From: Polyangiaceae bacterium
GTDB lineage: Bacteria; Myxococcota_A; Polyangia; Polyangiales; Polyangiaceae
Length of the DNA stretch: 64,000 bases
Assembly (NCBI GenBank): GCA_025936115.1
Contig: JAICTZ010000005.1
Span: 62,001-126,000 of the forward strand
Direction: 5' to 3'
The translations under genes were made by a program, and so were the position numbers. Below are positions 14,516-19,183 of this stretch, piece after piece (positions within the stretch are counted from its first letter, which is position 1; each line of letters starts with the position of its first letter). A model generated the notes under the pieces. It saw only the letters and a program-made list of their open reading frames with translations. It was not told the DNA's origin and did not search any database.

Positions 14516-14694
14516 GGCAAACTCAGGCGGCGACGAACGCTGCCGGATCGGCAAATCGCAGCTGTGCCAGCGCTTGGCGTCGGAGTGGCACACGGCCGGG
14601 GCCGTCGGCGACAAAAAGCGCTCGCTTTCTTGCGTCGGTCCTCGACGAGCTCAGGGTACGGCGATTGCTTACGCGTGGGACGGAGGCGACCGTC

Positions 14695-16140
14695 GTGAAG
14701 AGGCTACTTGGAGTGCTCGGGCTCGTGGGATGGGCGGCGGCGGCCTCCTGCGGCGGTGAGTCGACGTCGCACGATCGTGGCGGGGCCGCTCGTGCAGGTA
14801 CTTCGAACGCGGGGAGTCATGGCGCTGACGGCGGCCGCTCAGGTGCAGCACCACGTGCCGGTCGCGGCGGCACGGGCGGCTCGAGCGGACACGCCGGCGG
14901 CGGAACGTCTGGCGACGGCGACAGCGGCGGCGCCACTGCCGGCAGCGGCGATACGGGTGGCAGCGGACTCGTCGGGCCGGGCCCGTGCTCCGTCGAGCCG
15001 GCGGAGCTCGACGGCTTGAGCTTCGATGTCGAGTTGTCCCCTGGGGATGACCAGGTCTTCGTCTTCCACTTCGTCGACGGGCCGGACGGCTTGGAAGTCG
15101 TGATCGGCAGCGACGGCTACGCCACGCGCAGCCTGCTCGACGTTCACGCCGGCAAGCTCGAGCTCGTCGGCAACCTCGAGATCCGCGACGACAGCGGCTT
15201 TGGAGCGTGGACCTCGGACAACGGCAAGTACATCGAAAATCTCGAGCTCTGCGTCGAGCCGCCGCGCGACAGCGCCGGACGGCTGCGCGGCAAGGGCTCG
15301 GCGCTCGTGATTGCCAACGCGGACGACTACGAGGATCAGTGGGAAGAGCCAATCGATTTCGACGCCGGCGTCGATACGCGCGCTCCGAGCTTCCCCAACG
15401 CGATGAAGCTTTATCCCCTCGAGCCCGAGCTCATTCCGCTCAGCGAGCCCGTGGCGCCCGGCGCGTCGGCGATGCTCTCGGAACCACCCGCGTCGCTCGA
15501 CCCCATCGTCATGGCCGGTACGGTGGTCGGATTTCGCGCGCCCATCGTGTTGCCGCTCGGACTCGACTCCGCCGTGACGGCGTCTGCGCATGACCTTGGC
15601 GGTCTCCGCCTCGCTTCGAGCTTGCGTCTGTCCACCGACGCCGATCCGGGGGTCCAAGCGCAAGACGGCTTCGAATCGGAGCTTCACTCCATCGACTACG
15701 GCTATCCGGCCGAGCTCGTGCACGGCAGCCGGGCGCTCGAGGGTTCGGCATCGCTGTTCCTGCCCGCCGGCGCCGAGACGGTGCTCCACCTCACGCGGCC
15801 GTCGCCGAGCGCCAAGCTGCTTCGCCTCGAGCTCTTGCCAGAGCCCTTCCTGCTCCAGACTTCGGCCAACATCGTCGTGCGGGCGGGCGTGATTGGCGGC
15901 ACGAAGATCGAGTCGTTTGCCATTCCGTTCGCGGCCGACTGGTCCCTCGATGGCTCGCTCGGCGCGGCGGGCGCGGGCGGCGGAGGCGGCGCGGGTGCGG
16001 GCTCCGCAGACGCCATCGCCGTCGAACTCGAGCTCGGCGATGCCGGCGATGACGTGCTCGTCTCGATCTCGACGCCTCTCATCGAGGAGTCCTCGTCCGC
16101 CGTCGTGGCGGCGGTCATCGATCGGTTGCGCATCGAGTGA
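14695..16140 (+). CDS. Hypothetical lipoprotein with Gly/Ser linker
   Basis: A 481-residue exported protein of unknown function. The signal peptide ends in a lipobox (AASC), followed by a Gly/Ser/Ala/Thr linker to about residue 100. The rest is beta-rich with many Asp/Glu and no motif I recognise; a glycine-only stretch occurs near residue 430. GTG at 14695 is preceded by GGAGG eight bases upstream, which makes it a better start than the TTG ten codons earlier. It is monocistronic as far as the spacing shows. Confidence 0.7.
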   Translation: MKRLLGVLGLVGWAAAASCGGESTSHDRGGAARAGTSNAGSHGADGGRSGAAPRAGRGGTGGSSGHAGGGTSGDGDSGGATAGSGDTGGSGLVGPGPCSVEPAELDGLSFDVELSPGDDQVFVFHFVDGPDGLEVVIGSDGYATRSLLDVHAGKLELVGNLEIRDDSGFGAWTSDNGKYIENLELCVEPPRDSAGRLRGKGSALVIANADDYEDQWEEPIDFDAGVDTRAPSFPNAMKLYPLEPELIPLSEPVAPGASAMLSEPPASLDPIVMAGTVVGFRAPIVLPLGLDSAVTASAHDLGGLRLASSLRLSTDADPGVQAQDGFESELHSIDYGYPAELVHGSRALEGSASLFLPAGAETVLHLTRPSPSAKLLRLELLPEPFLLQTSANIVVRAGVIGGTKIESFAIPFAADWSLDGSLGAAGAGGGGGAGAGSADAIAVELELGDAGDDVLVSISTPLIEESSSAVVAAVIDRLRIE

Positions 16141-16846: not shown

Positions 16847-16924
16847 GCCCGTCGCGCCATCGTTGCCGGCCGAGGCTTGACGCCGCGGTAGAGGCGCGTG
16901 TAGGTGGGGCCGCTAATTCAAGAA

Positions 16925-17099
16925 CTGTCGGACGGAGGCAGGGAAGCCGGTGAAAATCCGGCGCGGTCCCGCCACTGTGATCGGACCATGACGAAGCCGT
17001 CGGACGGAGCGTGACGCTCCGGCCGGGCCACTCGGGAAGACCGGGGAAGGCCGTGCCGAGTCGAAACGTCCGAGAGCCAGGATACCTCCCCGTCCGAGC
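16925..17099 (+). promoter_or_regulatory. Cobalamin riboswitch
   Basis: The conserved core of the B12 riboswitch is readable: GGGAAGCCGGTGAAAATCCG, then GGTCCCGCCACTGTGA, and the 3' B12 box GAGAGCCAGGATACCT at about 17072-17086. The closing stem is supported by TCGGAC (16928-16933) pairing with GTCCGA (17092-17097), with GGAGG and CCTCC continuing it. It should bind adenosyl- or methylcobalamin and turn down expression when B12 is plentiful. A short hairpin with CCCCA/TGGGG arms (17108-17124) follows and may be part of the expression platform; there is no T tract, so control at translation is more likely than termination. Confidence 0.92.
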
Positions 17100-17212
17100 C
17101 CACTGAACCCCACGGTCGATGGGGCGTGGAAGCACGGCGGCGTGCATCCATGCTCACTCGTCCTCGGTGTTCCCGAGAGCCGGCGGACGACCGGCAGGTA
17201 GAGAGCACGTTG

Positions 17213-17713
17213 ATGAATCGAATGAGCTTCGTAGTCACGAAATTGGCCCTGGGTATCGCGCTCGGACTCGCGCTTTCGGCTTGCAGCGGCGACGACGACG
17301 CCGCGCCGACGAACCAGACTCCCGCGCACATCGAGATTGCCGGCACCTGGGCCAATGCGGATTTCGGTGAGACCGACAGCATCGACGACAGCACCTGGTC
17401 GTCCGATTTCGGCTCGGCTCCCACCCTCTCGACGATCGAGAAGTTCTCGAACGCGGAGCGTTACGCGATCCGGCAAGCGCCCGACGACGCCGCGTTCAAC
17501 CCGGGGACCTTCGATCGCGTCGTGTGGACGAAACCCGACGGCGATCATTTCTACTACTGCACGGTGACTTACGGCTGCGACACGCCCGACCTCACCGCCA
17601 CGGGCGACGGCGACGAAGATTCACCGAGCTGCAACGTATCCGACGTCGACGCGAGCGACCCGGAGAACGGCGGCTGCGGAACCTTCCCGTGGACGAAGCT
17701 CACCGCGCAATGA
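17213..17713 (+). CDS. B12-riboswitch-controlled lipoprotein 1, unknown family
   Basis: A 166-residue lipoprotein (MNRMSFVVTKLALGIALGLALSAC split at the lipobox LSAC), then an acidic Asp-rich start and a small beta-rich domain containing IEIAGTWANADFG, ITD-like acidic loops and several cysteines near the C-terminus (YCTVTYGC, SCNVSD, GGCGTFPW) that could form disulfides. I do not know the family. Its position, 114 nt behind a cobalamin riboswitch and overlapping the next gene by 4 nt (ATGA), ties it to B12 or corrinoid handling outside the inner membrane. An upstream in-frame start would put riboswitch-leader sequence into the protein and is unlikely. Confidence 0.75.
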   Translation: MNRMSFVVTKLALGIALGLALSACSGDDDAAPTNQTPAHIEIAGTWANADFGETDSIDDSTWSSDFGSAPTLSTIEKFSNAERYAIRQAPDDAAFNPGTFDRVVWTKPDGDHFYYCTVTYGCDTPDLTATGDGDEDSPSCNVSDVDASDPENGGCGTFPWTKLTAQ

Positions 17714-18465
17714 GCCGAGCGCGCACTCGCGAGCGCGTTTTCGCGACGCGCACGGCCGTTGGTGCGCTCTGTCTCGCGCTCGTCGCGTGCGGCGGCGAGG
17801 GCACGGAGCCGCCGCTCGCTTCGAAAGCGGCCGGTGCGGCAGGCGCGCCGGACGGTGACATGCCGGATCCGCCGCCGGACCCGAACCTGCCGTACGCGAC
17901 CGAGGTCGTGGATTTCGAGCCGGGCGTCGGCGCCGGCTACGGTCAGAGCAAGTTGCCGAACGTCGTGCTCGGGCCGCCGTCGGGTAGCGGGACCGATCAC
18001 GGGTCGCTCGATGTGCTCTCGCTCGGCAAGGGGGGGAGCATCGTGCTCGGCTTCGGCCGCTTCGCGATCAGCGATGTCCCGGGCCCGGATCTGGTCGTGT
18101 TCGAGAACCCGTTTTGGCCGGGGGGCGACCCGAGGCAGGTCTACGCCGAGCCGGGAGAGGTGAGCGTCAGCGAGGACGGCGAGACGTGGCGGACGTTCCC
18201 CTGCGATGCGGCGGGGGACGGTGAGGGACACTTCGCCGGGTGTGCGGGGGTGACGCCGACGCTCGTCTACGACCCCGCGGTCACGCTGCCGCTCGATCCC
18301 GTCGTGACGGGCGGCGATGTCTTCGATCTGAGCGCCGTCGGGCTCGTGACGGCAAATTTCGTTAGAATTCGCGACGTTTCTGCTTTCGGCGATGCTCCCA
18401 TGGCCGGTTTCGACCTCGACGCGGTGGGTATCGTCAACGCGGTGACCCGACCTGCCGCGCCCTAG
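17710..18465 (+). CDS. B12-riboswitch-controlled lipoprotein 2, BtuH/cell-surface-protein-like
   Basis: A 251-residue lipoprotein (lipobox LVAC) with a short linker and one beta-sandwich-like domain. Diagnostic stretches are VVDFEPGVGAGYG, GGSIVLGFGRFAI, DLVVFENPFW and AEPGEVSVSEDGETW. The same order of motifs (GG-I-V-GF, D-VF-N-F, EPG-V-VS-D, W) occurs, as I recall it, in the surface proteins of Bacteroidetes B12 operons near BtuB/BtuG/BtuH; this homology is from memory. It most likely captures or presents corrinoids at the outer membrane. Translationally coupled to lipoprotein 1. No TonB-dependent receptor or ABC transporter follows. Confidence 0.72.
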   Translation: MSRARTRERVFATRTAVGALCLALVACGGEGTEPPLASKAAGAAGAPDGDMPDPPPDPNLPYATEVVDFEPGVGAGYGQSKLPNVVLGPPSGSGTDHGSLDVLSLGKGGSIVLGFGRFAISDVPGPDLVVFENPFWPGGDPRQVYAEPGEVSVSEDGETWRTFPCDAAGDGEGHFAGCAGVTPTLVYDPAVTLPLDPVVTGGDVFDLSAVGLVTANFVRIRDVSAFGDAPMAGFDLDAVGIVNAVTRPAAP

Positions 18466-18531
18466 CCTCGGGCGCTAAAATGGGCCGCAGTGGCCTTGAG
18501 CGCGAATGGTTCCGATGTCGTGAAGAGTCGG

Positions 18532-18560
18532 TTGACAGCGGGCGCTCCGAGGGCTACGTG
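18532..18560 (+). promoter_or_regulatory. Putative promoter of the isc operon
   Basis: A perfect -35 box TTGACA (18532-18537) is followed, 17 bp later, by TACGTG as a weak -10 candidate (18555-18560). The inverted repeat at 18558-18587 begins inside this -10, so a regulator bound there could control RNA polymerase directly. Confidence 0.45.
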
Positions 18561-18587
18561 AACCCTAACCCTAACGTAAGGGTTCAC
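18558..18587 (+). promoter_or_regulatory. Inverted-repeat operator before the MerR-isc operon
   Basis: A perfect 9-bp inverted repeat, GTGAACCCT (18558-18566) and AGGGTTCAC (18579-18587), with a 12-bp centre. It ends 14 bp before the MerR start codon. The likely ligand is the MerR-family protein encoded next, acting on its own operon, but another repressor is possible. Confidence 0.65.
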
Positions 18588-18601
18588 CCCGACTCACTGG
18601 C

Positions 18602-19183
18602 ATGTCCACCCGCCGTCTCCCCCTAGCTGCTGAAGAGCCCTCCCGGCCGGTCGCGTCCGCCGCGCCCGTCGCCGCCGCCGCGGCTTCGAGCGCCAAGGAT
18701 GGCCTAAAAGAGGGAGATCTCCTGCAAGTCGGGGATCTGGCGAAGGCCACGGGCAAGACGGTCCGCGCCATTCACCTGTACGAGGAGCTCGGTCTACTTC
18801 GCGCTCACGAGCGTTCGAAGGGCCGGTATCGCCTGTTCATGAGCGACGCCCTCATTCGGGTGCGCTGGATTTCGAAGCTCCAAAACCTCGGGCTGTCGCT
18901 CTCTGAGATCCAGGAGCTCGTGCGCGAGCAGGACGGCTCGGATTCGGCGACCGTCGCCGCGCAGAAGCTCCGGGAAGCCTATGTCGCCCGTCTGGGCGAG
19001 ACGCGGCGAAAGCTCGAGGAGCTGCGTGAGCTCGAAGCCGAGCTCGAGCAAAGCCTCGCGTACCTCAGCGCTTGCGACTCGGCCTGCGAGTCGCAGCTGC
19101 CCGTTCATTCCTGCCCGAGCTGTGAAAGACACCCCGAGCGCGAGCACGCGCCCGAGCTCGTCACCGCCGTGCACGTGGTTTGA
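18602..19183 (+). CDS. MerR-family regulator with four C-terminal cysteines, heading the isc operon
   Basis: A 193-residue regulator. After an Ala/Pro-rich lead of about 35 residues comes a MerR winged helix (LLQVGDLAKATGKTVRAIHL, YEELGLL, GRYRLF), then the dimerisation coiled coil (about 115-155). The C-terminus has Cys158, Cys162, Cys171 and Cys174 (CDSAC and CPSC), which could bind a metal ion or an Fe-S cluster. It lies 3 bp before iscS in the same transcript, where most bacteria have the Rrf2 protein IscR. I infer that it senses Fe-S or metal status and controls the operon through the inverted repeat just upstream. Confidence 0.8.
   Translation: MSTRRLPLAAEEPSRPVASAAPVAAAAASSAKDGLKEGDLLQVGDLAKATGKTVRAIHLYEELGLLRAHERSKGRYRLFMSDALIRVRWISKLQNLGLSLSEIQELVREQDGSDSATVAAQKLREAYVARLGETRRKLEELRELEAELEQSLAYLSACDSACESQLPVHSCPSCERHPEREHAPELVTAVHVV

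Follow-up and report, generated by a model that had tools for sequence, protein, structure and literature searches.

A cobalamin riboswitch and the two lipoprotein genes behind it, here called LipoA and LipoB, probably constitute an outer-membrane corrinoid-capture unit that hands its ligand over to BtuB, as judged from sequence comparisons and a structure model. The window, i.e. the whole stretch of 64,000 nt that was analysed, contains the following features of this locus (positions are those of the window):

16889..17107, + strand: cobalamin riboswitch aptamer RF00174 (cmscan, 67.8 bits, full model 1-189)
17108..17212, + strand: leader from the aptamer to the first start codon, a putative expression platform by position (about 105 nt)
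17213..17713, + strand: LipoA, lipoprotein 1, 166 aa, lipobox LALSAC
17710..18465, + strand: LipoB, lipoprotein 2, 251 aa, lipobox LALVAC
17881..18438, + strand: BtuH-like domain of LipoB, residues 58-243 (structure alignment to 7biz_A)
18466..18601, no strand: junction separating LipoB from the isc regulator (blastn against L006)

The original prediction of a full B12 riboswitch core with a matching closing stem was borne out by the covariance-model search that it had proposed: RF00174 matches the aptamer over its full length (67.8 bits, E 1.4e-14, cut-off 31.5, model not cut off), and this is the sole Rfam match at the gathering threshold in the 64,000-nt window. A whole-genome riboswitch scan recovered the aptamer at the same place (16889-17107), about 36 nt ahead of the start originally assigned to it. 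The closing stem can be read in the sequence, with CGGACGG near 16929 pairing with CCGTCCG near 17090, and the B12 box and the P3-P5 core are present as GAGCCAGGATACC (0 mismatches to the pattern) and AGGGAAGCCGGTGAAAATCCGG. A terminator-like site was searched for in the leader and not found, and the leader RNA folds no better than its shuffles (z -0.45); a clear expression platform was not found there. L006, the closest relative in which the same genes flank the locus, shares the leader segment GAACCCCACGGTCGATGGGGCGTGGA unchanged and differs only in the base that precedes it. Plentiful cobalamin would repress the LipoA-LipoB unit through this riboswitch, if repression by B12, by analogy the usual sign for the class, applies here.

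The reading frames of LipoA and LipoB overlap as ATGA (17710-17713), and in both proteins a lipobox ending in Cys can be read from the sequence. On the 3' side of LipoB follow a MerR-type regulator (18602), iscS, iscU and the remainder of the isc operon, so that the gene order first described for the locus, two overlapping lipoprotein genes and then the isc genes, was found in place. Within 18555-19183 (+), the regulator at the head of the isc operon has a Cys-rich tail and is preceded by an inverted repeat, GTGAACCCTAACCCTAACGTAAGGGTTCAC, which is mostly conserved in L006; a MerR-type protein instead of an Rrf2-type IscR is unusual in this position. Directly upstream of the riboswitch lie a short ribbon-helix-helix antitoxin-like open reading frame and a PIN-domain protein (PF01850; 16170-16846, +), likely a toxin-antitoxin pair, and between this pair and a protease-like gene sits a large Gly/Ala-rich lipoprotein-like open reading frame with no Pfam match (14665-16140, +). 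Neither the pair nor the large open reading frame is found at the corresponding place in L006.

The BtuH domain of gut Bacteroidetes was reported to lack known structural homologs. The kinship of LipoB with the BtuH fold, outside the Bacteroidota, is well supported by profile comparison and by an AlphaFold2 model. The model was built from 5 sequences and has a mean pLDDT of 62, with core blocks mostly at 65-95 and some of them at 80-95. Among 985 PDB chains aligned to it with VIA-align, as had been suggested for BtuG and BtuH, the top match is BtuH2 of Bacteroides thetaiotaomicron (7biz_A, Z 12.9, rmsd 2.9, 154 residues aligned, 20% identity), covering BtuH2 residues 316-592, which form the B12-binding domain. 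The BtuH domain of BtuG1 comes second (8blw_B, Z 12.6, residues 388-660), and the remaining matches form a plateau of unrelated discoidin/CBM32 folds at Z 8.1 or less; Foldseek ranks 8blw_B first (E 1.8e-5). By hhalign, the LipoB profile matches BtuH with Prob 97.8 (E 1e-12), and the cores without signal peptides do so with Prob 97.2 (E 3.8e-11) across the first half of the domain, against Prob 0.2 for reversed-profile controls. A PDB profile search with 39 LipoB sequences also placed 7biz first, at a non-significant E of 0.51, and searches of PDB and Pfam with the single LipoB sequence gave nothing useful. For this comparison, BtuH sequences encoded on plasmids of Bacteroides and Persicobacter were used; all eight published BtuH contact residues sit at their published numbers in the protein of B. 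finegoldii. LipoB itself was searched for in plasmids, where none was found.

The 39-sequence alignment shows the motifs VFENPF, SVSEDGETW, GCAG, GGDVFDL and GFDLDA in the BtuH-like domain. Asn399 and Phe401 of BtuH2 contact the phosphate and the lower ligand of B12 (PMC8941943), and they align with the invariant Asn133 and the near-invariant Phe135 of LipoB. There is no conserved equivalent of BtuH Gln333 in the alignment and no clear aligned counterpart of His476, Tyr510, Trp511, Trp577 and Leu578. As most BtuH contact residues lack a clear counterpart, the LipoB pocket must differ from that of BtuH, and LipoB is a putative cobalamin binder. The protein resembles BtuH2, BtuH1 and BtuG1 of B. 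thetaiotaomicron in fold, in profile, in being a lipoprotein, in its upstream riboswitch and, as a family, in its BtuB neighbourhood. It differs in being shorter than the BtuH domain (about 185 vs 275 residues), in the absence of N-terminal PKD or propeller domains, in a conserved Cys pair of its own, in the corrin contacts, most of which have no clear counterpart, and, within the Myxococcota, in being paired with LipoA.

Among named families, LipoB matches NF033170, the LIC_13355 family lipoproteins, with E 2.4e-11 and 43.4 bits, well short of the curated cut-off of 120; it is accordingly a relative and, by that cut-off, not a member of this family, while belonging to the wider LIC_13355 superfamily. 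LipoA, for which the original prediction named no family, was found to have a named relative as well: it matches NF047669, the LIC13354 family exoproteins, with E 1.2e-5 and 25.7 bits (curated cut-off 130), and is a distant relative of that family, not a member. In the family alignments, every one of the 39 LipoB sequences matches the first of these models and 19 of the 22 LipoA sequences match the second, and the pair, as a pair, is therefore old.

The LipoA family has about 110 residues past the lipoprotein linker, with conserved Trp and Cys residues, the latter in the C-terminal domain, and a C-terminal GCGGFxW motif. A Pfam search with the single sequence gave nothing useful, a match to Porin_4 (E 8.7e-4) was rejected since it is below the cut-off and begins in the signal peptide, and a PDB profile search gave no significant match. 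The AlphaFold model from 4 sequences is poor and yields no meaningful fold, with lipocalin-like entries at just Z 2.5. Kinship with LipoB, BtuH, BtuL, DUF4465 or BtuG was likewise rejected by hhalign (0.1 against BtuH, 0.1% against BtuG); a profile signal between LipoA and LipoB came from the signal peptides and disappeared once these were removed. In several genomes LipoA domains occur in two or three tandem copies per protein, and such tandem domains or a fusion of LipoA to LipoB are found among L051, L062, L073, L077, L078 and L076, the fusion in L076 (one genome). The sole functional evidence on LipoA is the position of its gene.

This position was examined in the survey of homologues that had been proposed, which found both genes strongly linked to riboswitches and LipoB also to BtuB. 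The genomes scanned for riboswitches were mostly chosen for carrying LipoB and include related, non-independent genomes; since the scan scored riboswitch candidates in each genome up to a limited number, the linkage counts are lower bounds. LipoB relatives are present in 199 of 379 Myxococcota genomes; for at least 61 of 104 LipoB genes, from 19 families, a cobalamin riboswitch of the same orientation lies no more than 3 kb upstream (distances 99-1790 bp). Given about 1.9 cobalamin riboswitches per scanned genome, far less than one such case is expected by chance. Several further LipoB genes lie 3.4-6 kb downstream of a riboswitch, with btuB intervening in four inspected cases (L097-L100), and for 29 of the 104 no riboswitch was found on their own contig. 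For LipoA, relatives are present in 126 of the 379 Myxococcota genomes. A riboswitch lies within 2 kb upstream of at least 46 of 57 LipoA genes, where about 0.0003 per gene would be expected by chance, so that LipoA is linked to riboswitches more tightly than LipoB. By the criterion used, 14 of these 46 have no LipoB adjoining on that strand, although in one of them, G292, LipoB lies upstream in the same operon. Nine genomes have LipoA and no LipoB found, and six of their nine LipoA genes are located 104-771 bp behind a riboswitch.

The commonest riboswitch arrangement among 60 inspected loci is riboswitch-LipoA-LipoB with no btuB nearby, and it is seen in several families. Others are riboswitch-LipoB alone, riboswitch-LipoB-btuB with or without a propeller-like lipoprotein, and riboswitch-btuB-LipoB. 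At least 10 of the 60 loci have btuB beside LipoB: the two adjoin in L067, L068, L069, L074, L080, L090 and L095, and LipoB follows BtuB in L097-L100. Neither a riboswitch nor btuB is nearby in 13 of the 60 (L081-L086, L088, L089, L091-L094, L096), many of them from the window's own family. In L007, L009, L013-L017 and L020, all of one family, the pair lies directly downstream of tRNA genes and a small SRP RNA gene. The idea of a stand-alone corrinoid-capture unit, put forward from the window alone, is thus supported computationally, with the amendment that the stand-alone form is common and no oddity of this genome.

The window's genome (8.06 Mb, about 93% complete) holds three cobalamin riboswitches. 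One precedes, on contig C80, a TonB-dependent receptor followed by a propeller-like lipoprotein; the best PDB matches of this receptor are BtuB structures and related receptors, in agreement with the expectation that BtuB would be encoded elsewhere. Another (L005, from C19:157000-171000 of the same genome; 8207-8414, -) precedes NrdA, NrdB and MetE, likely one operon of B12-independent isozymes. BtuF, BtuD and BtuC are found on contig C65, and two MetH-type proteins are present. The original statement that no transporter is associated with the riboswitch therefore holds for the locus in the window, but not for the genome, with its BtuB and BtuFCD, nor for L006, with its BtuB. CbiA/CbiP, one marker family, was searched for in this about 93% complete genome and gave no match above the cut-off. 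With BtuB, BtuFCD and MetH present and CbiA/CbiP not found above the cut-off, the bacterium is probably a B12 user and scavenger that is unable to make the corrin ring.

In such a cell both lipoproteins would be located at the surface, where LipoB, with its BtuH-type domain, would likely be the primary cobamide binder and LipoA a partner with a possible part in binding the ligand, retaining it or handing it on. The captured cobamide would then pass to the BtuB and propeller-like lipoprotein of C80, and from there to the BtuFCD of C65. This uptake would supply MetH, with the riboswitch-controlled MetE and NrdAB as back-up.

BtuG lipoproteins, with their YncE/DUF5074 propeller, are expected partners of LipoA and LipoB in the same pathway, and differ from them in that the BtuG propeller has about 350 residues, compared with 166 aa for LipoA and 251 aa for LipoB, neither of which is a propeller. 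Propeller-like lipoproteins do occupy the BtuG position beside BtuB or LipoB (L004, 4806-6038, -; L006, 8642-9913, +). They have no Pfam match, and their assignment as BtuG was downgraded, given the weak similarity by profile (Prob 45). The jelly-roll proteins of the BtuJ/DUF4465 type are also riboswitch-controlled accessory B12-binding lipoproteins; LipoA and LipoB were rejected as members of this group (hhalign 0.1-0.2%; no Pfam DUF4465 match in 39 LipoB and 22 LipoA sequences). A counterpart in gene order comes from Persicobacter (L103), in which a riboswitch, a stand-alone BtuH, a TonB receptor and a DUF5074 protein follow each other in the same order as in several myxobacteria, making it a Bacteroidota counterpart of the myxobacterial order riboswitch-LipoB-BtuB-propeller.

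The locus in the window may be reduced relative to that of L006. There, a propeller-like lipoprotein follows directly 3' of LipoB and then BtuB on the opposite strand, before the isc genes, with an IS-like fragment between the propeller-like lipoprotein and the BtuB region. The blastn collinearity of the window with L006 is interrupted between window positions 18442 and 18529 and continues on both sides, and the about 4.1 kb with the propeller-like lipoprotein and BtuB are missing from the window at the junction 18466..18601. From this it could be argued that LipoA and LipoB are what is left, in decay, of a larger locus for B12 uptake (the pair, the propeller-like lipoprotein and BtuB), which has lost its transporter part, and that they have little function now. 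I consider this unlikely, as the frames of LipoA and LipoB are intact and conserved, as is the aptamer, and as the arrangement without btuB is the commonest among the inspected riboswitch loci. Moreover, the BtuB of L006 is just 39.6% identical to the BtuB of the window's own genome, which makes a gain in L006 as likely as a loss in the window. The propeller-like protein of L006 is also about 40% identical to its C80 counterpart, and with identities of only about 40% the two L006 proteins are paralogues or replacements of those on C80.

Alternatively, LipoA and LipoB may be surface adhesins or proteins for interaction with host or prey, for which B12 is merely a nutrient signal. This possibility arises from Leptospira, where LipoA and LipoB match one protein each, LIC13354 and LIC_13355, in locus-number order; from these numbers the two genes would be neighbours. 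Both L. interrogans genes are up about 3.7-fold together in host-adapted cells, and the two cobalamin riboswitches reported for this species are located elsewhere than LIC_13355 (PMC3953431). In these riboswitch positions, and in scores below the curated cut-offs, the window pair differs from the Leptospira families. LIC_13355 has been described as a protein of unknown function whose recombinant form reportedly binds plasminogen among other host components (PMC11891782); a discoidin-like fold, moreover, is common among carbohydrate-binding modules. However, the recombinant LIC_13355 used there was recovered as insoluble protein (PMC11891782), BtuH outscores the carbohydrate-binding modules by a clear margin (Z 12.9 vs 8.1), and LipoB adjoins BtuB in many genomes, all of which makes an adhesin function of the pair improbable.

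Least likely of all is that, instead of complete cobamides, the pair handles something else from the corrinoid pathway, such as cobalt, cobinamide or a different tetrapyrrole. Cobalamin riboswitches do control cobalt transport in other bacteria, and LipoB has no clear counterpart of the residues with which BtuH2 grips the corrin ring, but BtuB is present in the neighbourhoods, and the aligned contacts conserved in LipoB sit at the nucleotide loop, a part that is missing from cobinamide and cobalt.

Accessory B12-binding surface lipoproteins have been documented in gut Bacteroidetes. Capture of cobamides by the LipoA-LipoB pair would add to these a lipoprotein set found throughout the phylum Myxococcota, which sequence profiles and modelling trace to the BtuH fold, together with a second family, LipoA, that has no assigned structure and stands behind cobalamin riboswitches even more consistently. 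A bolder extension, which I put somewhat short of an even chance, is that LipoA represents a new cobamide-binding or transfer domain and the LIC_13355 superfamily the BtuH family outside the Bacteroidota. Two uncharacterised NCBI families gain a testable function, and for LIC_13355 of Leptospira there is an alternative to the adhesin reading; if it is true, a lipoprotein studied as an adhesin belongs to B12 scavenging. These observations suggest that bacteria dependent on B12 make more general use of catching it at their surface.
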